A DNA stretch of 64,000 nucleotides from positions 930,001-994,000 of the forward strand of contig NZ_JACXST010000002.1 in NCBI RefSeq assembly GCF_014850975.1, read 5' to 3'. Source of the stretch: Methylomonas fluvii. GTDB lineage: Bacteria; Pseudomonadota; Gammaproteobacteria; Methylococcales; Methylomonadaceae. Positions 33,139-48,406 of the stretch are shown here, in pieces. A program made the position numbers and the translations under genes. Under the pieces are notes generated by a model that had not been told where the DNA came from, did not search any database, and was given only the letters and a program-made list of their open reading frames with translations. Positions within the stretch are counted from its first letter, which is position 1; every line of letters starts with the position of its first letter.

Positions 33139-33189
33139 ACCCTGCCGGGCGTCTCGATTCCCAGCCGGGGTTCGACGGCCGGTATGCCC
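33139..33189 (+). promoter_or_regulatory. Pseudoknot-type leader of ssb (copy 1)
   Basis: ACCC at 33139 can pair GGGGT at 33167-33171. Strand A GGGCGT pairs strand C ATGCCC (33184-33189). This copy is further from its start codon (63 bases) than most, and its link to the ribosome site is not clear. Confidence 0.5.
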
Positions 33190-33252
33190 ATCGCCGCGCC
33201 GCTGGGTATTGTTTTCGTTGAGTCGGGCGCGGCCGACAGGAGGAATGTCATC

Positions 33253-33684
33253 ATGGCCAATCGCGGCGTGAACAAAGTCATCTTGCTGGGCCGGCTCGGC
33301 GCCGATCCGGATATTCGCTTTATGCCCAATAACGGCGGCAAAGTCGTCGCTGTCCGTTTGGCAACCAGTGAAGTCTGGAACGATCCTAAAAACGGCAAAC
33401 AGGAGCGGACGGAATGGCATCGGGTGGTGTTTTTCAAAAAACTCGCCGATACCGCCGAGCAGTATTTGCACAAAGGTAGCCAGATCTACATCGAAGGCCG
33501 TTTGCGTACCCAGCAATGGGGCCAAGCAAATAACAAGCGGTACCGTACCGAAATCGCCGCCTTTGAATTGCAGATGCTGGATCGCCCAAACGCATCGGCA
33601 GCCGCCAACGGTTCGTCATCATCGCCAGCGGCACCCGAGGACAACGATTGGGATGACGAATACAGCGATATGCCCATCCATTAA
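33253..33684 (+). CDS. ssb: Single-stranded DNA-binding protein
   Basis: A 143-residue SSB. The OB-fold begins MANRGVNKVILLGRLGADPD and includes WHRVVFFKKLADTAEQYLHKGSQIYIEGRLRTQQW, all typical. The linker is short and rich in Ser, Ala and Asn. The tail ends DDEYSDMPIH; most bacterial SSBs end in acidic residues plus IPF, so the last residues differ and binding to host partners may be altered. I start at the ATG at 33253, with AGGAGG before it; the longer open frame upstream reads through the leader. In SXT-type elements ssb, bet and exo form a recombination set, and the same order is present here. Confidence 0.95.
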   Translation: MANRGVNKVILLGRLGADPDIRFMPNNGGKVVAVRLATSEVWNDPKNGKQERTEWHRVVFFKKLADTAEQYLHKGSQIYIEGRLRTQQWGQANNKRYRTEIAAFELQMLDRPNASAAANGSSSSPAAPEDNDWDDEYSDMPIH

Positions 33685-33760
33685 ACCCCGGCGCGCCGAT
33701 TATAGGCGTTCATTGGTTTAACGGTTACACCGCCGACCCTTTTCAGGTTTCGGTATTTCA

Positions 33761-33803
33761 ACCCCCTGGGGAACTCCATTCCCCGGCGGGCGATGGCGTT
33801 CCC
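33761..33803 (+). promoter_or_regulatory. Pseudoknot-type leader of bet (copy 2)
   Basis: CCC at 33763 can pair GGG at 33788. Strand A GGGAAC pairs C GTTCCC (33798-33803). Alternatively A pairs B as GGGGAA/TTCCCC. CCTTT at 33802-33806 is complementary (one G-U) to GAAGG at 33813-33817, the ribosome site of bet. The start codon is 23 bases downstream. Confidence 0.6.
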
Positions 33804-33826
33804 TTTTTTATTGAAGGATACCCACC

Positions 33827-34867
33827 ATGAGCCAAAATAACCGCAACACCTTACCCAAAACCCGCGACCTGCCGATGCCGGTCACGGCGCAACAAAGCTA
33901 CGGCCTGTCGGAGCAGTCCTGGAAAGTACTAACCGAAGTCACTTTTCCCACGGCGAAAACCCCGGAAGCCATTCTGATGGCCCTGGATTATTGCAAGGCC
34001 CGCAAGCTCGACATCTTCAAAAAGCCGGTGCATATCGTGCCGATGTGGAGTGCCGCTTTAGGCCGCAATGTCGAAACTGTCTGGCCGTCCATCATGGAAA
34101 TCCAGACTACCGCGTCCAGAACCGGTGTTTGGGCCGGCATGGATAGGCCCGTCTGGGGTCCTGATGTCACCAAGACCTTTACCGGTCGCTACAAAGACGA
34201 CAACGAGCAATGGCAGGAATCCAGTGTCACCGTGACTTTTCCCGAATGGGTAGCCGTCACCGTGTATCGGATCGTTGCGGGAAAACGTTGCGCCTTTACT
34301 GAGGAAGTGTACTGGCTGGAAGCCTACAGCACCGCCGGTGGTAAAAACTCGCAAGTGCCGACCGCGATGTGGATCAAACGCCCCAAGGGGCAATTGGCCA
34401 AATGCGGTAAAGCGGCATCCTTGCGTTCAGCCTTTCCGGAGGAATGCGGTTATGCCGCCGAGGAGATGGATGGCAAAACGCTCGACGACATCGTCGACGC
34501 TACCGTAATTGATGGCGAAGCGACTGTGTGGGATGGCGATGCAGACGATCGGTTTCCCGAATCACCCGAGCACACGTCTCAGGTGATCAACTTGTCGCAA
34601 ATCCATCCCAAGGTGCAAAAGGCCGTAGCGGAATTGGTACGTCGTACCAAGGCGGCAGGTGCCTGGAAAGCAGCCTACGACTATGCCCACCAGAAGTTCA
34701 AAGGCATCGACCTGACCTTTGCGTTGGCCGAGTTGGACAAGGTATCGCAAGTTGAACCCAAGGCAACACAAGCCCTGGAACAAACCGAAAACACTGGCAT
34801 GCCACCCTTGTCCGCGAAAGACATGGCGATGAATCAGGCCCGTCAAACCCTGGGGCACGCGGCGTAG
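33827..34867 (+). CDS. bet: Bet/RecT-family single-strand annealing recombinase
   Basis: A 346-residue protein of the phage-lambda Bet / RecT family. Key stretches are YCKARKLDIFKKPVHIVPMW, ETVWPSIMEIQTTASRTGVW, EEVYWLEAYSTAGG and MWIKRPKGQLAKCGKAASLR, which match Bet annealing proteins. It anneals complementary strands coated by SSB and works with the exonuclease encoded at 35295. In SXT/R391 elements the equivalent pair promotes recombination between elements. The C-terminal tail after residue 230 is longer and less conserved. Confidence 0.92.
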   Translation: MSQNNRNTLPKTRDLPMPVTAQQSYGLSEQSWKVLTEVTFPTAKTPEAILMALDYCKARKLDIFKKPVHIVPMWSAALGRNVETVWPSIMEIQTTASRTGVWAGMDRPVWGPDVTKTFTGRYKDDNEQWQESSVTVTFPEWVAVTVYRIVAGKRCAFTEEVYWLEAYSTAGGKNSQVPTAMWIKRPKGQLAKCGKAASLRSAFPEECGYAAEEMDGKTLDDIVDATVIDGEATVWDGDADDRFPESPEHTSQVINLSQIHPKVQKAVAELVRRTKAAGAWKAAYDYAHQKFKGIDLTFALAELDKVSQVEPKATQALEQTENTGMPPLSAKDMAMNQARQTLGHAA

Positions 34868-34895
34868 AAACGCTGCAATCCTAAATTCTTTAACC

Positions 34896-34942
34896 ACCCA
34901 CGAGGGCGTCATGATTCGCCCACGGGGTAGGACATGGCGCTC
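34896..34942 (+). promoter_or_regulatory. Pseudoknot-type leader (copy 3)
   Basis: ACCC at 34896 pairs GGGT at 34925-34928. Strand A GGGCGTCAT pairs C ATGGCGCTC (34934-34942) over nine pairs including G-U. The alternative A:B hairpin is GGGCG/CGCCC. CTCTTC (34940-34945), which includes the end of C, is complementary to GGAGAG (34954-34959), the ribosome site before the ATG at 34963. Confidence 0.65.
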
Positions 34943-34962
34943 TTCATTTATCAGGAGAGGTC

Positions 34963-35298
34963 ATGAACACAAACGATCAATCATTAAACCGCGTGCCCTG
35001 TCATACCGACTGGCAACGTTACGATTCACCAACGGTGTTACGCCGTCACGGTCGTGGTTTTCTGGAACGCCTGTGGCGACCCCAGGCCAACGAACCGAAC
35101 CCGCAGCCCTTGAGCCAACCGGAACTGACAACGCTGGCCGAGAGTTTTGGCGGTGTGTGTCTGCCGGCGCAAGACGAACTGCTGTTGCTGTTCGGCGATG
35201 GCCATTGGGCCCGGCGTTGCCAGACCCAGTTGCACAAGCTCGGTATCGAGTCGGTGCGCTTCGGTTGCCAAGTGCAGTTGACCGGATTTTCGCGATGA
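34963..35298 (+). CDS. Conserved-looking hypothetical protein between bet and exo
   Basis: A 111-residue protein that I do not recognise. It has a polar N-terminal half (HTDWQRYDSPTVLRRHGRGF) and a compact C-terminal half with LTTLAESFGGVCLPAQDELLLLFGDGHWARRCQTQLHKLGIES, which reads like a small alpha/beta domain. It has a strong ribosome site and its own leader, and its stop overlaps the exo start as ATGA, so it is coupled to exo. The position inside the Bet-Exo pair suggests an accessory role in recombination. Confidence 0.75.
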   Translation: MNTNDQSLNRVPCHTDWQRYDSPTVLRRHGRGFLERLWRPQANEPNPQPLSQPELTTLAESFGGVCLPAQDELLLLFGDGHWARRCQTQLHKLGIESVRFGCQVQLTGFSR

Positions 35299-36296
35299 AG
35301 GTCATCGACGTTTCGCAACGTTCAGCCGCCTGGCGGCAATGGCGTTCACAAGGCGTCAGTGCCAGCGAAGCGGCCATTGTCATGAACCGCTCGCCGTATA
35401 AAACCCTGTGGCGGCTCTGGGCCGAGAAAATCGGCCTGGTGCTGGAAGCCAGTCTGGACAACAACCCGTTGATCCGCGCCGGCATCCAGCAAGAGCCCGA
35501 GGCTTTGCAACGCTTCGAGGACAAACACGATCTGATGTTGTTGCCGCTGTGCGGCGTGTCGGAACAGTATCCCTTGATGCGCGCCTCGTTCGACGGTTTG
35601 TCCGACGCGAATGAGCCCGCGGAAATCAAATGCCCGCACGAGACCACGTTTTTGGATGTGGTGTTGAATCGGGAAGCATCCCAGACCTATCAACTGTATT
35701 GGTGCCAAGTCCAGCAACAACTGCTGGTTTCCGAAGCGCAACGCGGTTTTCTATTCTTCTACCACCAAGGCCAGGACATCGAGTTCGAAATTCAGCGCGA
35801 TGAGACCTTTCTCACTGAACTGGTCGCTGCCGCGATGGACTTCTGGTCGGCGGTCAAATCCAAAAAGGAGCCGATCAAGGATCCCGAGCGTGATTTGTAC
35901 TTGCCGTACGGCGAGTCGGAACGGCAATGGCAACAACTGGCGGCGACGTATCGGCAACGGGCGTTGACCATTTTGGACCTCAAAAGCCAACTCAGCCAGT
36001 TGGATGAGGAGCAGTCGCGCATTGAAGACACCTTGGTGGCGTTGATGGGCGATTACGTGGCCGCAGAGCATTCCGGGTTGCGGATCAGCCGTTTTCAAAG
36101 CCAGGGTGCCATCGATTACAAGGCGGCACTTCAAACCTTGCAACCGGATGTTCAGGCTTCGGCGCTGGAAGTCTATCGAAAACCGTCTGCCACGCGAGTC
36201 CGTGTGACCTGCCGGGACGACGACGGTAAGCACGCCGAAGTCCCGTTCGATGCCCAAGCCTTGAAAGACCTGGCTGGCGTGGACTTTTGGTTTTGA
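35295..36296 (+). CDS. exo: YqaJ/lambda-Exo-type recombination exonuclease
   Basis: A 333-residue nuclease. It opens MKVIDVSQRSAAWRQWRSQG and has GVSASEAAIVMNRSPYKTLW, the conserved start of YqaJ-family exonucleases. The catalytic residues are likely E67/E69 (GIQQEPEAL), D100 (MRASFDGLSD) and E110-x-K112 (AEIKCPH). A later helical region (RALTILDLKSQLSQLDEEQS) may mediate oligomerisation. It resects double-stranded ends for the Bet protein. The start at 35295 overlaps the previous stop; longer open frame upstream reads through that gene. Confidence 0.9.
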   Translation: MKVIDVSQRSAAWRQWRSQGVSASEAAIVMNRSPYKTLWRLWAEKIGLVLEASLDNNPLIRAGIQQEPEALQRFEDKHDLMLLPLCGVSEQYPLMRASFDGLSDANEPAEIKCPHETTFLDVVLNREASQTYQLYWCQVQQQLLVSEAQRGFLFFYHQGQDIEFEIQRDETFLTELVAAAMDFWSAVKSKKEPIKDPERDLYLPYGESERQWQQLAATYRQRALTILDLKSQLSQLDEEQSRIEDTLVALMGDYVAAEHSGLRISRFQSQGAIDYKAALQTLQPDVQASALEVYRKPSATRVRVTCRDDDGKHAEVPFDAQALKDLAGVDFWF

Positions 36297-36463
36297 GTTT
36301 GATGGTTCGTTTCACGACATCCTGTAACCCTGGCGGTTGCAGGGTGTCGCTTGATGGACAGGAACATACATTCGGTGCCGGCGTGTCGGTTTTAGGCTGG
36401 ATTTTCAAAAAAGTCCAACCCAAAACCCGCATCGTTCAGGCATTCCCTTCGTGGAATCCCGAA
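36297..36463 (+). other. Non-coding gap after exo
   Basis: No gene is seen from the exo stop to the next motif. It contains ACCCTG...CAGGGT around 36327-36346, a hairpin similar to the start of the leader family, but no reading frame with a ribosome site follows it. Confidence 0.35.
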
Positions 36464-36539
36464 TCCGGTTTCGACCGGCGTTCCGTTATTAAGCGGCATG
36501 AGCGTTTGCCTCGTGTGCCAGGTGCGTCAAGCCTGGTGT
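36464..36539 (+). ncRNA. Three-stem RNA-like motif, copy 2
   Basis: Stems: CCGGT/ACCGG at 36465-36478 around TTCG, CCGT/GCGG at 36483-36495, a middle stem, and CCAGG/CCTGG around TGCGTCAAG at 36518-36536. Against copies 1 and 3, the first stem changes C-G/A-U pairs in step on both strands. It ends 10 bases before the leader at 36550. Confidence 0.6.
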
Positions 36540-36549
36540 TTTTGTTTGT

Positions 36550-36589
36550 CCCGTTGGGGTTCATCACCTTTGCGGGATTCGGTGACCCC
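36550..36589 (+). promoter_or_regulatory. Pseudoknot-type leader (copy 4)
   Basis: CCCG at 36550 pairs CGGG. Strand A GGGGT(TCA)TCACC pairs C GGTGACCCC (36581-36589) with a 3-base bulge. GACCCCTTT (36584-36592) is complementary at 8 of 9 positions to AAGGAGGTC (36602-36610), the ribosome site of the gene at 36614. Confidence 0.65.
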
Positions 36590-36613
36590 TTTTTTTGATT
36601 GAAGGAGGTCATT

Positions 36614-36826
36614 ATGAATCACGACTTTTGGAAAACATTGCATGGCTGGTTGAACGTTGCCCACAGCAACGACATTCAGGCCAAAAAGCGTTTGCTGCTG
36701 GAGATGCATCGTCAAATCTCGGACCCCGGTTTGAGAAGCGACATTCAGCGTATTGTCCGTTTGATGGATCGGGAGCTGTTGGCCCGCGCCGAATGGGCGA
36801 TGTACTGCGTGATGCAGTTGCGTTAA
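36614..36826 (+). CDS. Small helical protein, unknown
   Basis: A 70-residue protein that I do not recognise. It is fully helical in appearance (MNHDFWKTLHGWLNVAHSND, KKRLLLEMHRQIS, IQRIVRLMDRELL) with no membrane segment. A very strong ribosome site (AAGGAGG) lies before the ATG and a leader of the pseudoknot family precedes it. It is likely real given the leader, the spacing and its place between exo and the cobS-like gene. Confidence 0.7.
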   Translation: MNHDFWKTLHGWLNVAHSNDIQAKKRLLLEMHRQISDPGLRSDIQRIVRLMDRELLARAEWAMYCVMQLR

Positions 36827-36861
36827 CTTTTTATCCACCCTGGTTTGCCAGGGTTTAAATC

Positions 36862-36900
36862 ACCCGTTGGGGCTCATTACCCCTCGGGGCGGTGTGCCCC
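36862..36900 (+). promoter_or_regulatory. Pseudoknot-type leader of the cobS-like gene (copy 5)
   Basis: CCCG at 36863 pairs CGGG. Strand A GGGGC pairs C GCCCC (36896-36900); alternative A:B is GGGG/CCCC. GCCCCTTG (36896-36903) is complementary at 7 of 8 positions to CAAGGAGC (36922-36929), the ribosome site before the ATG at 36935. Confidence 0.65.
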
Positions 36901-36934
36901 TTGTCATTTGAGGCTTTACCTCAAGGAGCGCATC

Positions 36935-37876
36935 ATGTATCAACAATATTCGATTGCCGATACCTTCGGCATTGCAGCCCCGGCGTCCATGAAAGTGGAA
37001 GGCTTTGTCCCAGGCAAAAATGCTTATGTACCGGCGCAAAAAACCTATGTGTTTCGCAAGGATCACTTGCGAGATGTATTGGCGTTTTTAGGTGCCCACA
37101 ATGGCGACGGCTTATACCTGACCGGGCCGACCGGTTCCGGTAAAACCTCGTTGTTGGAGCAAGTCGCGGCGCGCCTTAATTGGGGCGTGCATTCGGTCAC
37201 CGGCCATGGTCGGCTGGAACTCAACGATCTGTTGGGTCAGTACATGCTGGTCGACGGCGGTGCGATGAAGTGGATCGATGGTCCATTAACCCTGGCGGTT
37301 CGCCTGGGTCATGTGCTATTGATCAACGAAATTGATGCCATCGACCCGGCAGAACTGATCGGTCTGAATGAAATCGTCGAAGGCAAGCCGTTGACGATTC
37401 CGCAGACCGGCGATGTGATCACACCGCACCCCAAATTTCGTTTGGTCGCCACCGGCAATAGTGCAGGTAGCGGCGATCAATCGGGCTTGTACCAAGGCGT
37501 GTTACGTCAGAACTTGGCGTTTCTGGATCGATTTCGGCTGATGGAAGTCGGTTACCCCGAACCCGAAGACGAAATGAAACTATTGGCCGATGTGGTGCCG
37601 AGCATGCCGGAAACGGTACGCGAAAGCATGATCAAAGTGGCCAACCAGATTCGCAAGGTGTTTATCGGCGGTGCGGATGGCGGCGGCATGTTATCGGTGA
37701 CCTTATCGACACGCGGTTTAGTGCGTTGGGCGTCATTGGTGGCCACTTTCAAAAGTGCGCCCAATGCCTTGGCCTATTCGCTGGATCGGGCATTGACCTT
37801 TCGGGCTGAACCCGCCGAACGCGAAGCGATTCATCGCATCGCCAAGGACGTGTTTGGCGATGACTGGCAGGTGTGA
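36935..37876 (+). CDS. CobS/MoxR-like AAA+ ATPase
   Basis: A 313-residue AAA+ protein. Walker A is GPTGSGKT (about residues 64-71), Walker B-like VLLINEIDAID (about 128-137), sensor 1 is in FRLVATGNSAGSGDQ, and a late arginine-bearing STRGLVRWASLV follows. It resembles the CobS subunit of cobaltochelatase and MoxR ATPases that act with VWA-domain partners. The CobT-like VWA protein at 39989 is the obvious partner. Similar cobS-like genes are backbone genes in SXT/IncC elements; the role there is unknown and unlikely to be cobalamin synthesis. Confidence 0.88.
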   Translation: MYQQYSIADTFGIAAPASMKVEGFVPGKNAYVPAQKTYVFRKDHLRDVLAFLGAHNGDGLYLTGPTGSGKTSLLEQVAARLNWGVHSVTGHGRLELNDLLGQYMLVDGGAMKWIDGPLTLAVRLGHVLLINEIDAIDPAELIGLNEIVEGKPLTIPQTGDVITPHPKFRLVATGNSAGSGDQSGLYQGVLRQNLAFLDRFRLMEVGYPEPEDEMKLLADVVPSMPETVRESMIKVANQIRKVFIGGADGGGMLSVTLSTRGLVRWASLVATFKSAPNALAYSLDRALTFRAEPAEREAIHRIAKDVFGDDWQV

Positions 37877-37878
37877 TC

Positions 37879-38637: not shown

Positions 38638-38658
38638 GCGTATTGTTATTTTTCATTT

Positions 38659-38702
38659 ATCCCGAAAGGGGCACATCTGCCCCAGCGGGATGGGTGTGCC
38701 TC
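38659..38702 (+). promoter_or_regulatory. Pseudoknot-type leader of the DUF3150 gene (copy 6)
   Basis: ATCCC at 38659 pairs GGGAT at 38687-38691. Strand A GGGGCACA pairs C TGTGCCTC (38695-38702). Alternative A:B is GGGGCA/TGCCCC with a 4-base loop. GCCTC (38698-38702) is complementary to GAGGT (38713-38717), the ribosome site before the ATG at 38722. This is one of the clearest copies. Confidence 0.7.
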
Positions 38703-38721
38703 TTTTCTTTAGGAGGTTCCC

Positions 38722-39900
38722 ATGTCGCATGAAACACAAGTGATATTAGATCGCGTGGTCTTGGTGAAAGTCGAAGCCAATATCTACGGCGCCCGCAAGA
38801 AACTGAAAAAAGAAGACCTGGTGCTGGCCGATGGTAGCAAATTGCCGCCGGAGGACTTAGCCAGCTTAGGATCCAAACGTTTGCTCGATCCCGATAAGCT
38901 GACGGTGTTTAACCGCCTGAAGAAGGAAGCCGAACGCATTTGTTTGCGCGTCGGCACCCGCTTTCTCGGTGGTTTTGCCGTGCCGGTTGAATCCGCGGCC
39001 AGTATTACTGCGGAACTCGAGCGTATCGCGCTGGATTTTGCAGCGGCTAAAACCGAGTTTATTGCCGGTTACGATGCGGCGGTGACTGACTGGGTGGTTC
39101 GCCATCCGGAGTTTGCCGGCATCATCGAGCAAGCGGTGGATTCGGTGGAGTTTGTCTCGACGCGCTTGTCGTTTGATTTTCTGGTGGTCAGTGTTGGTTT
39201 GCCCGATAGTTTGCCGCCGGCGGATGTCGCGCGACTGGAAAGCAAAATCGGTTCGCTCAGTGAGCAGATGTTCTACGAAATTTCCGTAGAAGCCAATCAA
39301 CTCATCGAGCAATCTTTGCTGGGCAAAGAGCAAGTAACGCGTAATGCGTTACGGCCGATCCGCCGCATGCGGGATAAACTCGATGGTTTGGGCTTTCTGG
39401 ATCATCGGGTCGCACCAGTCGTCAGCACCATTGACGATCTATTGGCGAGAATTCCCACCAAAGGCGCCATTGAAGGCAGCGTTTTGCAGGAGATTCTGGC
39501 CACGGCGATGCTGTTGTCCGATCCGGATAAAACCCGGCGGCACGGTGAAGGCTTGTTGGCGACTCAACTGCCCGTTGTTGATGAGACTGAAGAAGTCATC
39601 GAACATGCGGAGCCAGAGCTACCAGCAGTAGCAACACCCGTCATCGCTGAAATCGTTTCAGACAGCCCCGATTTTACCGATCTGTTTGACGGCATCTTTG
39701 ACGATGAAATCGAACCTGAATCGGTATCGGAGGACTGGGCGCTTGGGGTCTTGCTAGATAAAAGCCAAGCCGATGCTGCTACTAATGATTCTGATGAAGA
39801 CATCAAACCGGATGATCAATCCGATTTGGTAGCAGTCACTGCTGATGGCGATGATGATGAGGATGCTGCGGAGCATTCTGACCAGGACTACTGGTTCTGA
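38722..39900 (+). CDS. DUF3150-family protein
   Basis: A 392-residue protein, helical for the first 290 residues: RVVLVKVEANIYGARKKLKK, then TVFNRLKKEAERICLRVGTRF and GGFAVPVESA, which I associate with DUF3150, found beside the CobS/CobT-like pair in conjugative elements and phages. Residues 295-392 form a long acidic tail (DDEIEPESVSEDW, DGDDDEDAAEHSDQDYWF). The function is unknown; the constant company of an AAA+ ATPase and a VWA protein suggests a three-part complex. It has its own leader and strong ribosome site. Confidence 0.85.
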   Translation: MSHETQVILDRVVLVKVEANIYGARKKLKKEDLVLADGSKLPPEDLASLGSKRLLDPDKLTVFNRLKKEAERICLRVGTRFLGGFAVPVESAASITAELERIALDFAAAKTEFIAGYDAAVTDWVVRHPEFAGIIEQAVDSVEFVSTRLSFDFLVVSVGLPDSLPPADVARLESKIGSLSEQMFYEISVEANQLIEQSLLGKEQVTRNALRPIRRMRDKLDGLGFLDHRVAPVVSTIDDLLARIPTKGAIEGSVLQEILATAMLLSDPDKTRRHGEGLLATQLPVVDETEEVIEHAEPELPAVATPVIAEIVSDSPDFTDLFDGIFDDEIEPESVSEDWALGVLLDKSQADAATNDSDEDIKPDDQSDLVAVTADGDDDEDAAEHSDQDYWF

Positions 39901-39925
39901 ATGATCTGACGCCATTTAACTATTC

Positions 39926-39970
39926 ACCCACTGGGGCAAATTGATGTCCCTTTGGGGCCGTGGTTTGCCC
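39926..39970 (+). promoter_or_regulatory. Pseudoknot-type leader of the cobT-like gene (copy 7)
   Basis: ACCC at 39926 pairs GGGG at 39954. Strand A GGGCAAA pairs C TTTGCCC (39964-39970) over seven bases. TGCCCT (39966-39971) pairs GGAGCA (39979-39984), the ribosome site before the ATG at 39989, at 5 of 6 positions. Confidence 0.65.
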
Positions 39971-39988
39971 TGAATTTTGGAGCACACC

Positions 39989-41809
39989 ATGAAAAATAGA
40001 ACCTTACACAACGCGTTCCCCATAGTTGCGGCGGCCATAGGCAATCGCTTTGGCATTAAGGTCAGCGTCGGTGGCGATCAAGCCTATACCGATGGTAAGT
40101 CGATTCAGCTCCCGGCCTATGAGGGTGATGACCCTGATTACCAGGATTACGCCTGGGGCCTTTTGGCTCATGAAGCGGCGCATATTCGTTATTCGGATTT
40201 TTCGCTGCGCTATGGCAGTTCGGTATTACGCCGGCGCTTATGCGGTGCCATCGAAGATGTCCGCATTGAGCATGAACTGGCGAAAGACTTTCCAGGTACG
40301 CGGCTGACGATAGGCACGGTGATCGAAAAAATGATTGCCAAAGGCGACTTTGTGGCCACTCGTATCGACGATCATCCGGCCAATATTTTGTACAGCTTTG
40401 TTTTGAAGAGTTTAAGGGCCAGGGTACTGGGTCAAACGGCCTTACTACCGTTGGTCGCGCAAACGGAAGTGGCACTGAAAGCGAAATTTCCGAAAGGTGC
40501 CGTAACGCGAATGAAAGGCTTGTTGTCCGAAGTGCCGCAGGGTTTGCAGTCAGAAAGCGATTGTCTGCACTTGACCGACCGTATCCTGACGATGATCGAG
40601 CAGGAGTTCGAGCAACAACGGCAGCGTAATCAGGCGCAGCCAGCGGCAGATGAGGACACACGGCCTGAACCGTATGATACCGATCAGGCCGCTGTATCAG
40701 CAGATTCGGACGGTTCAAACGGCTCGGATTCCGAGGATGATATGGAACACGATCAACGTTTACCTGCCGATAATGACGACGAACAGTCTTCAGAATCCGG
40801 TGGTAACGATGATTCCAATCCGGAAAATCCTGACGATGAACCCAGTGCGCAGGCAGAAAATTCTTCATCCGACCCGCAAGGTGATGACGAAGAGAGCACG
40901 GTGATTGCCGATCCTGTAGGCGTCTTGCAAACCCTCTTATCGGCTGGCGACATTGACATTGACCAGGATCTGTTCGAATCCCTGAAATCATCGTTATCGT
41001 TGGCCGCAGAAAACGTATCGGAACTGTTGATGCCGAGCGGCAACGAGCCGCCTATGGACGAGCGAGCCGGTGCGTTTTTGCTGCGCAAGGTGCAAAGCGA
41101 ATCAGGAAAAATCCGCGCCGCTTTGCAAGGCTTGGTGCAATCGCAAACTCTCAACCGCTCGCAACGCGCCTGTCGTGGTCGGCGGATAGATGGCAAGCGC
41201 TTACACCGCCTGCCGCTCGGTGAAACCAAGTTGTTTCAGCGTAAGCAGGTCAAAGCAGCACCCAATACGGCGATTCATCTGTTACTGGATAAATCCGAAA
41301 GTATGGGATATCAGGTCAACGATAGCCAAGGCCAGTCCGTTGGATCGCGAATGCCGATTGCGTTGGAAGCCACTTTGGCGCTGGCGTTGGCCTTTGAAGG
41401 TATTCCGGGGGTTAATCCTGGCGTCACTGCGTTTCCAGGTCATCAAGACGATTCGGTGTTCAGATTGCTTGAGCATGGTCAACGGGTGAATGTCCGCACC
41501 GGTGCCTTCTCGCTGGCAGCCACCGGCAGTACGCCGATGACCGAAGCGATTTGGTTTGGTGCTGCGTCGCTATTGCGTTGTCGAGAACCGCGCAAGGTGC
41601 TGATGGTCATGACCGATGGTCAACCCAACGATACGCTGAGCACGCTGGATATTTTGCAGCGCTGCCGGGATAGCGGTATCGAAACGGTGGGCATTGGTTT
41701 GGGACTGGATGTCAGTCATCTATTCCCGATTGCCATCACCATTAACGATCTATCAGAGCTGAGAGCACAATTGTTCGAACTCTCGAAAGCGGTGTTGTTG
41801 GCGGCTTAA
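39989..41809 (+). CDS. CobT-like VWA-domain protein with HExxH-type motif
   Basis: A 606-residue protein. Near the N-terminus WGLLAHEAAHIRYSDF carries HEAAH at residues 61-65, a metal-binding motif as in zinc peptidases. Residues about 210-310 are an acidic low-complexity linker. The C-terminal VWA domain has the MIDAS motif DKSESM in AIHLLLDKSESMGYQV (about residue 434), then GSTPMTEAIWFGA and VLMVMTDGQPNDTL. CobT-type VWA proteins pair with CobS/MoxR AAA+ ATPases, here at 36935. The ATG at 39989 was chosen over an in-frame TTG at 39977. The function in conjugative elements is unknown. Confidence 0.88.
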   Translation: MKNRTLHNAFPIVAAAIGNRFGIKVSVGGDQAYTDGKSIQLPAYEGDDPDYQDYAWGLLAHEAAHIRYSDFSLRYGSSVLRRRLCGAIEDVRIEHELAKDFPGTRLTIGTVIEKMIAKGDFVATRIDDHPANILYSFVLKSLRARVLGQTALLPLVAQTEVALKAKFPKGAVTRMKGLLSEVPQGLQSESDCLHLTDRILTMIEQEFEQQRQRNQAQPAADEDTRPEPYDTDQAAVSADSDGSNGSDSEDDMEHDQRLPADNDDEQSSESGGNDDSNPENPDDEPSAQAENSSSDPQGDDEESTVIADPVGVLQTLLSAGDIDIDQDLFESLKSSLSLAAENVSELLMPSGNEPPMDERAGAFLLRKVQSESGKIRAALQGLVQSQTLNRSQRACRGRRIDGKRLHRLPLGETKLFQRKQVKAAPNTAIHLLLDKSESMGYQVNDSQGQSVGSRMPIALEATLALALAFEGIPGVNPGVTAFPGHQDDSVFRLLEHGQRVNVRTGAFSLAATGSTPMTEAIWFGAASLLRCREPRKVLMVMTDGQPNDTLSTLDILQRCRDSGIETVGIGLGLDVSHLFPIAITINDLSELRAQLFELSKAVLLAA

Positions 41810-42049: not shown

Positions 42050-42082
42050 AAATCGCAGTGGTACGACCCTCTGCAAATCCTA

Positions 42083-42129
42083 ATCCCGCTTCGGGCGACC
42101 ATCGCCCGGCCGGGTGCTGTTCATTCGAA
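42083..42129 (+). promoter_or_regulatory. Pseudoknot-type leader (copy 8)
   Basis: CCCG at 42085 pairs CGGG at 42111. Strand A TTCGGGCGA pairs TTCATTCGAA (42120-42129) with G-U pairs and one mismatch; the A:B alternative CGGGCGA/TCGCCCG is perfect. GAAGT (42127-42131) can pair ACTTC (42157-42161) directly before the ATG at 42163. A weaker copy. Confidence 0.55.
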
Positions 42130-42162
42130 GTGTTTTCTTAAATTTTATAAAGGAGAACTTCA

Positions 42163-42696
42163 ATGAACTTTATTTTCGGCATCATTATTTTGGCGCTGTT
42201 CATCCTCGCCTTGCGGGTCATATGGGCAACGGCGTTGCAACTGCTGAGCGTATTGAAACATGCGTCTCAAACGGTTCACAGCTATCGTGCAAAGCGCCTA
42301 GCCCGAAACCGATTACCGGTGATCTTGCCCCAAATCCGTCATGAAGTGGATTGGTTGGCGATGTCAGATTCGGTGCGTCAGGAAATTCATAGTCGCAATC
42401 GTGAAACGAATCGCGAGCTGGATCGCTTGGAACTCCAATATCAAGCCAAACAGAAAACGATCAAACTCTACGAGGCGGATATTGAAATCGCCAAACTAGA
42501 GCGGGATTTATTGAAAATCAAACCGACTATCGTCTCGGCGGAAACCGAGGCTAAACCCCGTCGGCGGTCTAAAAAAGTGGGCGATTCAGCCCTGGTGGAC
42601 GACAAGTCCGCTAAGACTGCCCAACAGGTATTTCAATTGAGGGAAGCGCTGAAAGGAAATGCCAACGCACCGGCTAATCAGCAAGCCCGCCATTGA
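42163..42696 (+). CDS. Membrane-anchored coiled-coil protein, unknown
   Basis: A 177-residue protein with an N-terminal membrane helix (IFGIIILALFILALRVIWA, residues 4-22) and a long charged helical body (RNRETNRELDRLELQYQAKQ, EIAKLERDLLKIK) that should form a coiled coil, then a basic stretch KPRRRSKK. I recognise no family. It lies in the DNA-processing block and has its own leader and ribosome site (AAAGGAGAA). It may tether a partner to the inner membrane; that is inference. Confidence 0.7.
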   Translation: MNFIFGIIILALFILALRVIWATALQLLSVLKHASQTVHSYRAKRLARNRLPVILPQIRHEVDWLAMSDSVRQEIHSRNRETNRELDRLELQYQAKQKTIKLYEADIEIAKLERDLLKIKPTIVSAETEAKPRRRSKKVGDSALVDDKSAKTAQQVFQLREALKGNANAPANQQARH

Positions 42697-43051: not shown

Positions 43052-43155
43052 GGCTTTTTCTCTGTTTTTTAATGAGTTTTAGCCACCATATACCGATTTT
43101 TACGTGAATTCAACCCCGCTGCATAAGCCAGTTTTAGGCATTTTCAGCGTTTTTA

Positions 43156-43195
43156 ACCCTGCAGGAACCTCATCCTGCCGGGTGGTCGTTCCTGC
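43156..43195 (+). promoter_or_regulatory. Pseudoknot-type leader (copy 9)
   Basis: ACCC at 43156 pairs GGGT at 43180. Strand A GCAGGAAC pairs C GTTCCTGC (43188-43195) perfectly over eight bases; alternative A:B is GCAGGA/TCCTGC. TTCCT (43189-43193) is complementary to AGGAA (43206-43210), the ribosome site before the ATG at 43217. Confidence 0.7.
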
Positions 43196-43216
43196 GATTT
43201 TTTGGAGGAAATGACC

Positions 43217-43879
43217 ATGTCATCAACATTAGTAAATGGCGTTAGCCATTCGCATTCTGAAATTGAAGGTGTACGGTATTTGAATCATTACCGCTGCCCT
43301 TACTGCAAAAGCGAATGGGAGGATGTATGGGATTGCGGCTGTAATGATCGCTGCCCGGACTGTAACAAGGAGATCGAGCCTTATGAAAGCGCATTGATCG
43401 AGGGTGAATCGGCGGAAACCGACTCGCCAGTCCAAGAACCAGCCTTAGCCAATGCCACGCCAGAAGGCATGAATCGACGTTTCGTAGTGTCCTACGAGAT
43501 CGACTATGTCCATCGCGTGTCGGTAGGCATCACCGCGGAGTGTCCCGAATCGGCACAACAGATTGCCGAACAGGCATTCAATGACGCCACCATTTGGGAT
43601 GACACCGCCGCCATACCGTTATTGTCGGATGAATACCTTGAGTCGGGCGATGAAAGCTTGGTATGGGAATGCGTGGCCGTTGAACAACTGCCGGAACCGG
43701 ATTATTCGGTACGACAATTGAAGCAGGAACAAGCGGCCATGCGGGTTTGCCGCAGATTGGTTGAAGCCTATCCCCAAGGTGAAACCAACGGCGGCAGTAT
43801 CGATTGGGACGACTTGGATCAGTTAATCCCGCTGGCATTACAAGCCTTGGGAAAAACAGCGCTCGAAATCAAATCCTAA
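43217..43879 (+). CDS. Zinc-ribbon protein, unknown
   Basis: A 220-residue protein. Near the N-terminus a zinc ribbon is formed by YRCPYCKSEWEDVWDCGCND and CPDCNKEI (CPYC...CPDC pair). The rest is acidic and mixed, with RRFVVSYEIDYVHRVSVGI, AEQAFNDATIWDDTAAIPL and a helical end. I recognise no family for the C-terminal part. The start at 43217 is preferred because GGAGGA lies seven bases before it; ATG 43211 touches that site. It sits in the backbone block with its own leader. Confidence 0.72.
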   Translation: MSSTLVNGVSHSHSEIEGVRYLNHYRCPYCKSEWEDVWDCGCNDRCPDCNKEIEPYESALIEGESAETDSPVQEPALANATPEGMNRRFVVSYEIDYVHRVSVGITAECPESAQQIAEQAFNDATIWDDTAAIPLLSDEYLESGDESLVWECVAVEQLPEPDYSVRQLKQEQAAMRVCRRLVEAYPQGETNGGSIDWDDLDQLIPLALQALGKTALEIKS

Positions 43880-43962
43880 ACAAATAGCGCGCGTTGTTCA
43901 GACGCGTAATTCGTAAAAGCCTGAGTTAGCCAAGTCATTCGATGCGGCGCTCATTTTTTTCC

Positions 43963-44012
43963 ACCAAAACGGGAATGTCCTATTCCCGCTGGGGAATTGT
44001 GATGTTTCCGTG
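43963..44012 (+). promoter_or_regulatory. Pseudoknot-type leader, divergent copy (copy 10)
   Basis: The A:B hairpin CGGGAAT/ATTCCCG (43969-43988) is perfect, but the outer ACC:GG pairing and the A:C stem are weak. GATGTT with CC (44001-44009) is complementary to GGACAACATC (44021-44030), the bases directly before the ATG at 44031. Confidence 0.5.
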
Positions 44013-44030
44013 TTTTTTGAGGACAACATC

Positions 44031-44528
44031 ATGAATCAAGTCTTTGAACACACGTTCGGCACGGGTCATTGCATCCAGTACCAGCGTTTGCCATCCGGCA
44101 CCTGTTATCACGCCGACACACCGGAACCGGTGGTCGAGTTGTTGGAACAGCTTCGCCATAGCCGACGCAAAATCCGGCTGTATTACGGCGATCCAGCTAC
44201 CGGTCAATCGTGGCTCGATGAACACGATGTCATCGGCTGGGTCGGTCGCTCAATGGGATCCATCAAAGTCCCATTGCTAATCGAACCCGGCGATATCGGC
44301 GGTCCGGCCTTGCTGGACCACTGCATCGTTCGCATCGATAGTCCGCGCCATGTGCTCTACCAACACGATGAATTTCGCGTTGGCGAGGTAGATCTGGTCA
44401 GAGGCGAGCTTAACCGCTTGCCTTGGGAAATCTGGATCGACGGCAGCGTGCATGCCCGATTCAAAGCAAAAACCGAAGCCCGGCAGTATCAGGACTTCAT
44501 TCAAGGTAAGCGGTTTGCGTTGATCTGA
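44031..44528 (+). CDS. Conserved-looking hypothetical protein
   Basis: A 165-residue soluble protein: GTGHCIQYQRLPSGTCYHAD, EQLRHSRRKIRLYYGDPATG, WLDEHDVIGWVGRSMGSIK, then VPLLIEPGDIGGPALLDHCI and a final FKAKTEARQYQDFIQGKRF. I recognise no domain, but the pattern of short strands suggests a compact beta-rich fold. It has its own leader and a terminator follows at 44550, so it is a one-gene unit. It belongs to the backbone block by position. Confidence 0.7.
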   Translation: MNQVFEHTFGTGHCIQYQRLPSGTCYHADTPEPVVELLEQLRHSRRKIRLYYGDPATGQSWLDEHDVIGWVGRSMGSIKVPLLIEPGDIGGPALLDHCIVRIDSPRHVLYQHDEFRVGEVDLVRGELNRLPWEIWIDGSVHARFKAKTEARQYQDFIQGKRFALI

Positions 44529-44549
44529 CGCGCCGTTTTCATTGTTGAC

Positions 44550-44571
44550 ACTCGGTTAAGCCGAGTTTTTC
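44550..44571 (+). terminator. Rho-independent terminator
   Basis: ACTCGG at 44550-44555 pairs CCGAGT at 44561-44566, followed by five T. It ends the transcript of the gene at 44031 and implies that the methyltransferase gene has its own promoter, between here and its leader or just upstream. Confidence 0.8.
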
Positions 44572-44576
44572 ACACT

Positions 44577-44627
44577 ACCCCTGCGGGATGATTCTATCCC
44601 GCCAGGGTTGAATCGGTCGTCAGGGGC
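44577..44627 (+). promoter_or_regulatory. Pseudoknot-type leader of the methyltransferase gene (copy 11)
   Basis: ACCC at 44577 pairs GGGT. The A:B hairpin GCGGGAT/ATCCCGC is perfect; A:C is limited to GATTC/GAATC with a few extra pairs. CAGGGG further on could also pair CCCCTG at the 5' end. The start codon is 16 bases after the end. Confidence 0.55.
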
Positions 44628-44643
44628 TTTTTTGGAGAATACC

Positions 44644-46407
44644 ATGACAGACCCTTATCAATATTACCCCACGCCAGAAGCACTGAGCCGTAAAGCTTGG
44701 GCTATGTTCAAGAACCAGCAATTCGCGCGGGTATTGGAGCCTTCAGCAGGCGAAGGACATTTGCTTCGTCCAGGACCCCACCAGTACGGTAAACGTTTGC
44801 CGATCGATTGCATTGAAATCGATATCCGCAAACACGCGGCTCTGCGCGATGAAGGCTTTGCTGTGGTGGGGATGGATTTTCTGCAGTTTCAAAGCGGCAG
44901 TGTCTATTCGCACATCATCATGAATCCGCCGTTTTCCGACGGCGCCAAACACGTGTTGAAGGCTTGGGAGATCTTGTTTGACGGTGAAATCGTCGCCATT
45001 CTCAATGCCGAAACTGTGCGCAATCCGTTTTCGAAAGAACGCCAGTTGTTATTAAGGTTGATCGAGCAGCACGGCGAGGTCGAGTTTCTGCAAGAAATGT
45101 TCGCCGGCGAGGATGCCGAACGCAAAACGCCGGTCGACGTGGCCCTGGTCTGGTTGAAAAAAACTTCGACGTTCGAACAGGACATCCTCGGCAGTATTCT
45201 GGACGATTTGCGCCAGGATCGTCGGGAGGCCGACGATTTAGCGGGCGAGTTTCAACTGCCCCATGAGTTGGCCTTGCCGAATGCCTTCATCGATAACGCG
45301 GTATTGATGTTCAACGCCGCAGTCGAAGCAGCGCGACAGGCCGTGGTCAGTGAAGCCCGTGCCAGCCGTTATCGGACCATGCTGGGCAAAACCCTCGGCG
45401 AACTAAGCGGTGGCGGTATCAGCAGTGAAGACGACTCGTCATCGGATGCGGTGAAGCGGATGCTGTTCAAACGCTATCACGATCTGAAGAATCGGGCCTG
45501 GGCCAGCATTTTACGCTCTACGCAGGTGACTTCACGCTTGTCATCGACGGCGCAGAAACGCTTGGAGTCGGATTTTGAAGCGGTGAAGTCCTTGGAATTT
45601 ACCGTGCCGAATATCTATGGCTTTCTGCAAGGCATCATCGATCAGCAAGGTGAAATTCAACTGAGCATGGTGTGCGATGTGTTTGATCTGATCACCCGCT
45701 ATTACAGCGATAACGCAGTGTTTTACATGGGCTGGAAAAGCAATGACAAACACCGCACGCTGGGCATGCGGATCAAAACCACTCGGTTCGTTCTGCCAGG
45801 GCACAAAGTCGAGTCCTATCACAATAGCCTGAACTGGGAGTCAGAACGTCTGTTAGCGGATTTCGACAAGGTGTTTGCCTTGCTCGATGGCAAGACCGAA
45901 GCGGACGTGAGTTTGGTGTCGGTGTTTCGGCAGCATTTTCACGCGCTTCGGGTTGGAAAACGGATCGGCGGCAGTTATTTTGACGTTCGCTATTATCCGG
46001 GCGTTGGCACCATCCACTTTTTTCCGAAAAGCAAAACCTTGATCGACCGGATGAACCGTTGGGTCGGTCGCCAGCGCCGCTGGTTGCCGCCGGTGGAAAG
46101 CCAAGCCGGACAAGGTTTCTGGCAGCAGTTCGAACAGGCAGAGAACTTAGATCGGGCGTTTCACACCGAAGTGAACAAGAAGTGTCCACGCAGTAGCCGG
46201 CATGTCCATTTCGATCCCTTTTGGGCGATCAAGCACGGCGGCGAGTCGGAACGGGAAAAAGGTCATCGTCTGTTAGCCCAGGCGATGAGCACGGTACTTG
46301 CCAGCCGGGGCATCGATCCCGATGCGGTATTGGAAAACGAACAATCCAGCTTGCTGGAATGGACGGGCTCATTACCCTCTTCTACAGACCTGGCTTTGGC
46401 ATCGTAA
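44644..46407 (+). CDS. DNA methyltransferase-like protein with DUF4942 domain
   Basis: A 587-residue protein. The N-terminal part is a class I AdoMet-dependent methyltransferase: RVLEPSAGEGHLLRPG is the AdoMet loop and HIIMNPPFSDGAKH holds the NPPF catalytic motif of N6-adenine or N4-cytosine enzymes (about residue 94). The C-terminal half has DVFDLITRYYSDNAVFYMGWKSNDK, which I associate with DUF4942. Such genes are common on conjugative elements and may modify incoming element DNA to avoid restriction. The ATG at 44644 is preceded by TGGAGAA. The adjacent GHKL ATPase gene has a separate leader. Confidence 0.85.
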   Translation: MTDPYQYYPTPEALSRKAWAMFKNQQFARVLEPSAGEGHLLRPGPHQYGKRLPIDCIEIDIRKHAALRDEGFAVVGMDFLQFQSGSVYSHIIMNPPFSDGAKHVLKAWEILFDGEIVAILNAETVRNPFSKERQLLLRLIEQHGEVEFLQEMFAGEDAERKTPVDVALVWLKKTSTFEQDILGSILDDLRQDRREADDLAGEFQLPHELALPNAFIDNAVLMFNAAVEAARQAVVSEARASRYRTMLGKTLGELSGGGISSEDDSSSDAVKRMLFKRYHDLKNRAWASILRSTQVTSRLSSTAQKRLESDFEAVKSLEFTVPNIYGFLQGIIDQQGEIQLSMVCDVFDLITRYYSDNAVFYMGWKSNDKHRTLGMRIKTTRFVLPGHKVESYHNSLNWESERLLADFDKVFALLDGKTEADVSLVSVFRQHFHALRVGKRIGGSYFDVRYYPGVGTIHFFPKSKTLIDRMNRWVGRQRRWLPPVESQAGQGFWQQFEQAENLDRAFHTEVNKKCPRSSRHVHFDPFWAIKHGGESEREKGHRLLAQAMSTVLASRGIDPDAVLENEQSSLLEWTGSLPSSTDLALAS

Positions 46408-46455
46408 TCCGGTGTTATACAGGTCTTTAACTTAACCACTGGCCTAGCCAGTATC

Positions 46456-46513
46456 ACCCGCCTCGGGGAGATGATCCGTTCTCCCCGTCGGGGTTGGACT
46501 GTGTCGTTTCCTC
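46456..46513 (+). promoter_or_regulatory. Pseudoknot-type leader of the GHKL ATPase gene (copy 12)
   Basis: ACCC at 46456 pairs GGGT at 46491. Strand A GGGGAGATGA pairs C TCGTTTCCTC (46504-46513) over ten pairs with G-U; alternative A:B is GGGGAGA/TCTCCCC. TTCCTC (46508-46513) is exactly complementary to GAGGAA (46528-46533), the ribosome site before the ATG at 46539. Confidence 0.7.
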
Positions 46514-46538
46514 GGGGCTTTTTATTTGAGGAACTCAC

Positions 46539-48134
46539 ATGAAAACCACACAATTATCGGTAAACCCCGAAAAATTGATTAACAACTTACGCTTCAGCTT
46601 TACCCAGTCCACCACGGTACTGGGCGAACTGATGCAAAATGCCCGCCGCGCCGGCGCCAGGTTCATCAGCTTCGAGTATTCGGAAGATGCTCGAACCTTG
46701 ACGGTGTGTGACGATGGCTGCGGCATCGCCTGTTTGAAAACGTTACTCACCGTAGCAGAGTCCGGCTGGGATGTTGAGGTCATCGAACGGGAACATCCGT
46801 TTGGACTTGGATTTTTGTCAGCCATTTTTGCCTGCGATGCCATCAGCGTCGACAGCAAAGGCGGTCGCTTTTCGGTGGATACGGCTGAGCTTTTGGCCTT
46901 CCAACCGATTGTGATCGAACCCGCGGACTGGCAAGGCATCACGCGTTTGACGTTGACCCAGTTCAAACCGGAAGCGGATCAGATCGAATCCCAGTTGCGT
47001 CGCTTGGCGCGGGGATTTCCGATTGAAGTGCGCTTTAACGGTGTCAGCCTGGATCGGCCGCGAGCGATCACATCAACATTACCGTTCATCAAGACCGAAC
47101 TGGGCGATCTTTACTTGTATGGCTTGTCCCAGGGCGAAGACTGGTTGCGACAGTCGGAGTATTTTCATCTGTATCTGCAAGGTTTACCGATCTATCACAG
47201 TCACCACGAACGAGACCCCGGTCATGTCATCCACTTGGATTCAAGCCGGTTTTTCGCTCGGTTGCCCGACCGGGATAAATTGATCGATGAAGCACAGGTG
47301 ATTGCTGAGGTTAAGCACGTTCTGCAAGGGGAAGCCAGGCAACGACTGGACGTGATCAAGAACCAGCTATCGGCGGAGGACTTTGTACAGGGCTATGACA
47401 CCCTGAAAACATACCGCTGCCTGGATTTACTGAATGACTTGCCGTTATTGCCCAAACAGGTATTGGCGATCATTCAGGATTATCCGATCAAGGAAGGTTG
47501 CAGCAACGTTAATTTGGCTGTGGATTCGCAACCGGTCAGCCGAAGCGATGTGGAAAAAGGCCTTGTCAAAGTTGCCGACTTGGATGATCTCGATGAGGTC
47601 GGTGCGCTGCGCTGGATGTTCGCCTGGCACCGCGATTATCGGGTATTTCGGCCGGGGTTGGATGCTAGGCATTGGCTGTTTACATACTTGGTCGATTTGA
47701 ACGGGCCGGCCATCACCTTAGACATCGTCAACGAAACGCACCGCGCTTTTTTTGAAGGGCAACGGGTGAGTGGTCCGGCGGTATTTTGTGAAAAATATCG
47801 GTTAACCCTTAATGGCGAGTCTGTCGACATCGATCACGATGCCGTCTATGACGAGGATCAGGACTGCTTCATCGTACCCACTCGGGGGGCATCCGGATTA
47901 GTGGTTTGCCAGGCATCGTCGTACTACGACGAATGGGATACGTTCATGGAATCCGCCAAGGAAGCCGATGAATGGGATTTTCAGAACTTCGTGGTGGCCA
48001 ATACGGCGGATAAACCCGCGGATGCATTGCAACGACTGCTGCCGAAATTTGGTAGTTGTCCGGCGCTGTTTTCCAGGACCTTTCAAATCGTGCTTGGCAA
48101 TAGTGGCGATGTCGTCACCGTTGCGGAAATGTAG
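46539..48134 (+). CDS. GHKL (Hsp90/MutL-type) ATPase-domain protein
   Basis: A 531-residue protein with a Bergerat ATP-binding fold: the N box LGELMQNARRAGARFISFEY (E30, N34), the G1 box VCDDGCGIACLKTLL, and HPFGLGFLSAIFACDAI as the G2-like loop. This is the start of Hsp90/MutL/topoisomerase VI-type ATPases. The remaining 380 residues have no recognised domain (QGEDWLRQSEYFHLYLQGL, DLDDLDEVGALRWMFAWH). Similar proteins occur on conjugative elements without a known role. It lies between the methyltransferase and radC genes, each with a leader. Confidence 0.82.
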   Translation: MKTTQLSVNPEKLINNLRFSFTQSTTVLGELMQNARRAGARFISFEYSEDARTLTVCDDGCGIACLKTLLTVAESGWDVEVIEREHPFGLGFLSAIFACDAISVDSKGGRFSVDTAELLAFQPIVIEPADWQGITRLTLTQFKPEADQIESQLRRLARGFPIEVRFNGVSLDRPRAITSTLPFIKTELGDLYLYGLSQGEDWLRQSEYFHLYLQGLPIYHSHHERDPGHVIHLDSSRFFARLPDRDKLIDEAQVIAEVKHVLQGEARQRLDVIKNQLSAEDFVQGYDTLKTYRCLDLLNDLPLLPKQVLAIIQDYPIKEGCSNVNLAVDSQPVSRSDVEKGLVKVADLDDLDEVGALRWMFAWHRDYRVFRPGLDARHWLFTYLVDLNGPAITLDIVNETHRAFFEGQRVSGPAVFCEKYRLTLNGESVDIDHDAVYDEDQDCFIVPTRGASGLVVCQASSYYDEWDTFMESAKEADEWDFQNFVVANTADKPADALQRLLPKFGSCPALFSRTFQIVLGNSGDVVTVAEM

Positions 48135-48336
48135 TCGAAACCCAATCGGGCCGATGGTCGCGGCTGTGTTAGCCCGTGGCTTTTGGCTGGTTTTCTGGCG
48201 AACGACCATTTAACAAGCACGCATTCCAAAACACCTGACGCAGTACTGGCGTCAGCTCAAGCGTCTTTAGCGAAATGTGTTCTGCCGACGGTCAACGCCT
48301 GCAGACATCGCTGACGATGCTTTGAATATTCTTACA

Positions 48337-48379
48337 ACCCTTCCGGAGAAAGTCCACTCCGCAAGGGGCTGCTTTCTCC
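48337..48379 (+). promoter_or_regulatory. Pseudoknot-type leader of radC (copy 13)
   Basis: CCCT at 48338 pairs AGGG at 48364-48367. Strand A GGAGAAAG pairs C CTTTCTCC (48372-48379) perfectly; alternative A:B is CGGAG/CTCCG. The same GGAGAAAG recurs as the ribosome site at 48396-48403, so C can pair either A or the ribosome site with eight perfect pairs. This is the best single example of the proposed switch. Confidence 0.75.
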
Positions 48380-48406
48380 AAATTTTATGATTACGGGAGA
48401 AAGCCC

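Follow-up and report, generated by a model that had tools for sequence, protein, structure and literature searches.

In translational riboswitches, a leader RNA adopts alternative folds that either mask the ribosome site or expose it. For the conjugative element SXT, a translational attenuator located before bet was reportedly described by Garriss in 2013, and it is treated in a later review. In the passage devoted to it, transcription of SXT bet and exo is strong, but the attenuator, which lies upstream of bet and is also present in IncA/C plasmids, holds their translation back (PMC4542580). The pertinent part of a paper on T4 gene 32 describes autogenous control: when the single-strand-binding protein exceeds the DNA available, it represses the mRNA that encodes it by way of a leader pseudoknot (PMC3014915). 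Another leader RNA, the radC RNA motif, appears among the motifs of Weinberg et al. 2010, in the section that concerns it (PMC2864571). Here we describe a gene block of an integrative and conjugative element in Methylomonas fluvii, contained in a stretch of 64,000 nucleotides (nt) referred to as the window (positions 930,001 to 994,000 of contig NZ_JACXST010000002.1, assembly GCF_014850975.1). Each separately started gene of this block is preceded by a leader of one plan, the module. To judge from sequence comparison and predicted folding, these leaders are probably cis-acting translational switches, one per translation unit and OFF by default.

The block contains, in order, ssb, bet (RecT), a small gene, exo (YqaJ), a second small gene, a cobS-like gene (AAA_5/CbbQ_C), a WGR-like gene, a DUF3150 gene, a VWA/CobT-like gene, five more genes including one of the DUF4942 family, and radC. 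The WGR-like gene, which has no Pfam match, keeps the name given to it in a preliminary description of this DNA. That description had proposed thirteen leaders with a single topology, and reading and mapping all thirteen bears this out. From 5′ to 3′ each leader consists of the 5′ strand of a helix P1 (ACCC, or TCCC, CCCG or CACC), 1–5 nt, a G-rich strand A, a loop, a strand B that is the complement of A, 1–4 nt, the 3′ strand of P1 (GGGT or alike), a short loop, a strand C, the ribosome-binding site (RBS) and ATG. Strand C complements A, and in most copies it complements the RBS of its own gene as well. At radC the C strand CTTTCTCC pairs with GGAGAAAG at 8 of 8 positions, and at the 36602 site GACCCCTTT pairs with AAGGAGGTC at 8 of 9, one pair being G-U; these two counts, taken from the preliminary description, hold on inspection by eye. 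The spacing of the genes also agrees with its statement that only the two coupled genes lack a leader: the start of exo overlaps the preceding stop, and that of the WGR-like gene lies 2 nt after the preceding gene.

Because MAFFT alignment across paralogues is unreliable, the specificity of these pairings was assessed by exchanging partners between genes. P1, A and B were located without use of C or the RBS, by script in twelve leaders of the window and by hand in that of ssb, and duplex energies of a gene's own partners were compared with those of 5000 derangements. In the window (n = 13), own A:C duplexes reach −15.4 kcal/mol against −8.8 for swapped partners (z −9.7), and own C:RBS duplexes −11.3 against −8.1 kcal/mol (z −5.3); no derangement was as good in either case. 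The capacity of A to pair with C as an alternative to B, as first proposed, is thus present. The same excess is found in the IncC plasmid pSN254 (n = 17; A:C z −7.7, C:RBS z −7.1), a Pseudomonas nitroreducens plasmid (n = 8; z −9.6 and −5.4) and Vibrio tubiashii p123 (n = 6; z −4.2 and −8.6), with 0/5000 in every test. The gene lists were picked by hand: 17 of 22 printed starts for IncC, 6 of 24 for p123, and 10 of 13 for P. nitroreducens, of which 8 were kept and two were dropped for too short a C side. Pairing of A with the RBS, which the model does not predict, gives z values of 0.0, −1.6, −1.3 and 0.3 in the window, pSN254, P. nitroreducens and p123, respectively. Two plasmids without a recognized block show no excess for own partners (L061, z −0.4; L062, z −1.1); a third, from Polaromonas (L060), shows a weak one (z −2.3, 63/5000) and has at least one motif-like leader by eye.

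A wider sample was obtained by scanning a collection of species genomes with a DUF3150 alignment, which yielded 166 relatives, with 80 loci kept. All called plus-strand genes were then scanned at 84 loci (these 80, three plasmid loci and the window), using a simple gene caller that mis-set two starts in the window, those of ssb and 34963. A core of P1 and A:B scoring at least 24 occurs in 563 of 1525 leaders, as against 24 of 1525 shuffled ones. The hosts include Shewanella, Marinomonas, Vibrio, Providencia, Alcanivorax, Azomonas, Thiocapsa, Methyloversatilis and Methylocaldum. At a score of at least 25 the core is absent from DUF3150 loci of Desulfovibrio (L138, 0/15 leaders; L144, 0/11) and from one of Methylocystaceae (L126, 0/9). 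The dereplicated set numbered 172 leaders, and 169 after three with too short a C side were dropped. Exchange of partners within this set gives z −26.3 for A:C and −17.8 for C:RBS, with 0/5000 each, and z −2.1 for A:RBS.

Comparison with dinucleotide-shuffled C sides leads in the same direction. In the window, p ≤ 0.05 is reached by A:C in 8 of 13 leaders (Fisher 5e-11) and by C:RBS also in 8 of 13 (Fisher 6e-7); among the 169 leaders the counts are 93 and 65. The proposal that C matches its own RBS in most copies, beyond what composition would give, therefore withstands both the shuffle and the swap control. The window copies in which A:C does not exceed the shuffles are those of ssb, 36614, the cobT-like gene, 42163 and DUF4942. 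In alignments of orthologues, 2655 of 2997 cells are paired for A:C and 2140 of 2495 for C:RBS, and about half when the strands are slid. Among cobT-like orthologues C and the ribosome site change together, GGTTTGCTCC occurring with GGAGCAAACC and GGCTTGCC with GGAGCAAGCC.

Predicted folds favor one of the two arrangements. The minimum-free-energy (MFE) structure contains A:B together with C:RBS in 120 of the 169 leaders, A:B only in 28, A:C in 12, C:RBS only in 1 and other pairings in 8. A forced OFF fold lies below a forced A:C fold in 147 of 169, with a median difference of −6.9 kcal/mol (energies without a pseudoknot term). On average C pairs with the ribosome site over 9.0 base pairs and with A over 9.7, and in 51 of 169 leaders it covers part of the start codon. 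C may act as an anti-RBS strand: anti-Shine–Dalgarno, anti-spacer and often anti-AUG. A resembles the ribosome site of its own gene more than those of other genes (z 7.3, 0/3000), as in a solitary radC gene with TGGAGAACACCG as A strand and AGGAGAACACCC as ribosome site, and could be an upstream mimic of that site. In the putative OFF state, A would pair with its neighbor B inside P1 and so leave C free to mask the ribosome site. In the ON state A would capture C and the ribosome site would be open; with P1 kept, this fold would be an H-type pseudoknot. Because the predicted folds favor OFF, default repression that is relieved when A captures C is proposed, and such repression fits the strongly transcribed but attenuated bet and exo genes of SXT as they appear in the review's passage on them (PMC4542580). 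We infer that the leaders would act at the level of RNA, with the pseudoknot as the ON state. Since each gene has a separate triple of A, C and RBS, little cross-talk between copies is expected. The P1/A:B scaffold (AACCC-n-GGGG..CCCC-n-GGGG), common to all copies, would be the likely handle for one shared signal.

The distribution of modules along pSN254 fits a rule of one module per translation unit. With a call at a score of at least 22 and the block taken as 92.6–119.8 kb, the module precedes 23 of 30 separately led block genes and none of the 5 genes that overlap or closely follow another. In the tra-side region it precedes 1 gene of 15, and there with poor C:RBS pairing. Of the seven misses in the block, 16957, 17243, 18412 and 19217 resemble members by eye; at 19639, scored as a match, the detector took the wrong core, and the right one is present. 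The leaders of three IncC genes (L070 6148, 10983 and 19639) are nearly identical, which would fit the copying of a leader from one gene to another.

Several points weigh against the switch interpretation. Among Methylomonas orthologues, double-sided compensatory pairs exceed slid controls by a moderate margin only (A:C 21 versus 11.3; C:RBS 14 versus 13.0). Of the strong covariation first asserted, the conserved pairing stands and the compensatory change is limited; support for C:RBS therefore comes from the swap and shuffle controls rather than from covariation among orthologues. In five of the 13 window copies, namely ssb (33253), the cobT-like gene (39989), 44031, DUF4942 (44644) and 46539, C:RBS does not exceed the shuffles, and in 104 of the 169 leaders it does not reach p ≤ 0.05. 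A:C is the MFE pairing in just the 12 leaders noted above, by energies without a pseudoknot term, so that the ON state would need help. P1 is compatible with both states and therefore cannot separate a pseudoknot from a plain A:C helix. Swapping, dereplication and energies, moreover, account for phylogeny only partly.

It might be supposed that the leaders are static attenuators or insulators, which hold down the translation of every cistron and stop read-through out of the preceding gene with no switching at all, A:C being a by-product of a purine-rich A that looks like a ribosome site. OFF is indeed the predicted default in most copies, and the published SXT bet element is described, in the sentence the review gives it, only as an attenuator (PMC4542580). 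A static block needs C:RBS alone, however, and A:C is at least as gene-specific (z −26 versus −18) and persists in 2655 of 2997 cells of the orthologue alignments; this conserved, gene-specific A:C pairing makes static attenuation improbable. Action at the level of DNA, by folded single strands that serve as recombination or single-strand promoter sites between gene cassettes, would suit hairpins lying between genes of mobile elements and the near-identical leaders of the three IncC genes. Coupled genes have no module, however (0/5 in IncC), and each C is matched to the ribosome site of the gene it precedes, so that a DNA-level role seems very improbable. Hardly credible is transcription attenuation, in which A:C and U-rich sequence would form an intrinsic terminator: T-runs do follow C in some copies (bet by eye; 28 of 169 versus 9 at random places), but 141 of 169 copies have no T-rich stretch there, and a terminator leaves the complementarity to the ribosome site unexplained. 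A translational switch remains the preferred reading.

The M. fluvii genome holds a second copy of the block (G000:C2:1718500-1736500, L031), in which all 15 genes are matched, and a further DUF3150 copy with a leader on another contig (G000:C3:17000-21000, L153). A covariance model, R2, with 34 positions and 9 pairs was built from 20 leaders, 4 from Methylomonas (three loci), 16 from outside that genus and none from the window. At E ≤ 10 it gives 21 matches in the window, with sense-strand matches at 10 of the 13 leaders and 5 of the 21 away from leaders. Over the whole 5.6-Mb genome, at the same threshold, all 11 matches fall at leaders of this gene set. Four are in the window block, one of them on the strand opposite the leader; five are in the second copy, 31–46 nt before the homologues of bet, DUF3150, cobT, 42163 and 46539, one again on the opposite strand; one precedes the further DUF3150 gene on C3, and one a further radC gene.

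The module was found in elements of the SXT/R391, IncC and ICEclc types. Among its members is the SXT-type bet leader, and by eye the module is seen in 13 of 15 bet leaders, the two without it being from Marinobacterium (L082, L085). At these two loci the cobS-like leader also lacks it by eye and has another hairpin, and the exo and VWA leaders keep it. The module occurs as well at L106, from Marinomonas D104, the strain of a published SXT/R391 element. At E ≤ 1, R2 matches are found in 87 of 369 genomes of the class; single matches may be due to chance, and some cluster. Six clusters were inspected: three lie with STY4534, DUF3275 and radC, one with DUF3275 and a 43217-like gene, one with radC and a 43217-like gene, and one with ssb, exo and cobS. 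We take the clusters with STY4534, DUF3275, radC and 43217-like genes to be of the ICEclc/PAGI-2 type. At nine loci that are ICEclc-type or carry radC RNA, the core scores at least 24 in 45 of 153 leaders, versus 5 shuffled, and their 38 dereplicated leaders give z −7.9 for A:C and −7.7 for C:RBS (0/5000 each), with −0.9 for A:RBS.

The preliminary description had suggested that the leaders might be the radC RNA or a relative of it. Identity is rejected, because the radC RNA model RF01754 has no match in the window at gathering score or in 31000–50500 at E ≤ 10; the same model finds true copies at L064–L067. RF01754 was found in 0 of 201 genomes of the family, in a search whose positive control also gave no match. 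With 149 positions, several hairpins and a conserved sequence, RF01754 differs from the module, which also occurs without it; the two have in common that they are leader RNAs before DNA-handling genes of conjugative elements (here ssb, bet, radC and others).

A relation between the two is borne out. The radC RNA occurs in several copies per element, and one R2 match, found blind, fell on an annotated copy (G461:C1:1399585). In the leaders read, the module lies between the radC RNA and the ATG. Sixteen radC RNAs reach gathering score; a start was found for 15, and the core was detected in 12 of these, compared with a mean of 0.62 in mononucleotide-shuffled sequence, or in 9 of 12 distinct leaders once near-copies were removed (three L170 copies closely resemble L167). 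By eye, two leaders that the detector missed (L169) and one that it narrowly missed (L171, 21.4) are similar in appearance, and in the sixteenth the R2 match falls inside the Rfam match. Ten distinct leaders of this kind give z −2.8 for A:C (14/5000), −3.0 for C:RBS (2/5000) and −0.6 for A:RBS. Other genes of the same elements have, by eye, the module without radC RNA. Since the module follows most radC RNAs and also precedes genes that have none, the module is the common part, and the radC RNA looks like an optional extra 5′ domain placed directly before the module as expression platform.

Other Rfam families were also considered. Neither STAXI (RF01728) nor any other family matches the leaders of the window, and none was found in six other elements at gathering score; in three of these six, searched at E ≤ 1, there were only two chance-like matches. 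Coordinates of the thirteen leaders are collected below.

Table. Positions of the leaders and their strands in the window; R2 is the covariance model described in the text.
Leader	Positions	Strand	P1 (5′/3′ strands)	A	C	Remarks
ssb	33139..33185	+	33139-33142/33167-33170	33143-33154	33173-33185	C:RBS weak; R2 sense match 33137
bet	33761..33827	+	33761-33764/33788-33791 (GGGC)	33767-33781	33792-33805	C:RBS to 33827; R2 24.2 bits
gene 34963	34896..34965	+	34896-34899/34925-34928	34901-34917	34929-34945	C extends to start codon; missed by R2
gene 36614	36550..36614	+	36550-36553/36573-36576 (CCCG)	36555-36566	36580-36590	
cobS-like (AAA_5, CbbQ_C)	36863..36935	+	36863-36866/36885-36888	36868-36879	36890-36901	
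DUF3150	38660..38723	+	38660-38663/38687-38690 (TCCC/GGGA)	38664-38679	38691-38707	
cobT-like (VWA)	39926..39991	+	39926-39929/39954-39957	39932-39947	39958-39972	pairing runs into AUG
gene 42163	42084..42165	+	42084-42087/42112-42115 (TCCC/GGGT)	42088-42104	42116-42132	
gene 43217	43156..43217	+	43156-43159/43180-43183	43160-43172	43184-43197	
gene 44031	43962..44033	+	43962-43965/43991-43994 (CACC/GGGG)	43968-43980	44000-44012	missed by R2
DUF4942	44577..44644	+	44577-44580/44605-44608	44581-44595	44609-44624	C:RBS weak; R2 match on opposite strand only
gene 46539	46456..46540	+	46456-46459/46490-46493	46460-46476	46502-46519	
radC	48337..48405	+	48337-48340/48365-48368	48344-48354	48370-48380	A is CGGAGAAAGTC, a ribosome-site copy; ribosome site 48395-48405

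Inspection of the ssb leader by eye shows additional GC-rich complementary stretches, GCCGCGCC and GGCGCGGC, lying after the module and ahead of the ribosome site (33173-33250); given its weak C:RBS pairing, this leader may be an extended version of the module. A different recurrent leader stands before ssb, DUF4942 and radC homologues at L056–L059, with an ATGGTTT..AAACCAT hairpin and then GGYCGGGCAATTCCGC..GRCCA-like stretch before the start. It has no Rfam match at gathering score and is possibly another unrecognized leader RNA. Elsewhere the window contains a group II intron match (D1-D4-6, RF02005, 172 bits) at 61488-61712 on the minus strand.

A family of this kind may be of some consequence. 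Its sequence is so variable that it escapes RNA discovery by sequence, and the lack of a matching Rfam model may be due to this. The module precedes many genes of an IncC plasmid and of elements of the SXT/R391 type, which are known to carry resistance genes. With it an element could keep an entire gene block silent until a signal arrives. It would also open to testing the question of how recombination and maintenance operons of conjugative elements, although strongly transcribed, stay quiet until they are needed. Mimicry of the ribosome site gene by gene would be an unusual route to placing many genes under one signal with little cross-pairing. A bolder and distinctly tentative view, on balance doubtful, is that one structure-defined switch, with sequence almost free, topology fixed and copies tuned to their own ribosome sites, governs the translation of whole maintenance and recombination operons in two or more superfamilies of conjugative elements of proteobacteria (SXT/R391-IncC and ICEclc/PAGI-2). 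All copies would then answer one signal through P1/A:B, for example a single-strand-binding protein titrated by incoming or damaged DNA, and the radC RNA would be an added sensor domain.

Riboswitches differ in that the module conserves mainly AACCC/GGG and the G- and C-rich strands, and its low sequence conservation outside P1, A and B gives no sign of a ligand pocket. STAXI, as presented in its section of PMC2864571, resembles the module, itself a putative pseudoknot, in being a pseudoknot near ssb and other DNA-handling genes; it consists of tandem repeated pseudoknots, often with UUCG loops, whereas here one module was mapped per leader. T4 gene 32, which encodes a single-strand-binding protein, likewise has a translation-controlling pseudoknot in front of it; the case concerns one gene and a protein-bound, repressing pseudoknot, and the pertinent part of the source does not describe a strand that mimics the ribosome site (PMC3014915). 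By analogy it may serve as a model for the module, not as evidence. In the parts of the open-access literature covered by a search, the leader family is not reported beyond the review's sentence on the bet attenuator (PMC4542580). Like that attenuator, the module forms a structured leader immediately before bet in elements of the SXT type and in IncC; according to that sentence the attenuator represses translation (PMC4542580). The sentence names bet only, whereas the module precedes most separately led genes of the block and occurs in other element families. The module would provide a mechanism and a setting for the SXT bet attenuator, and a likely expression platform for the radC RNA.

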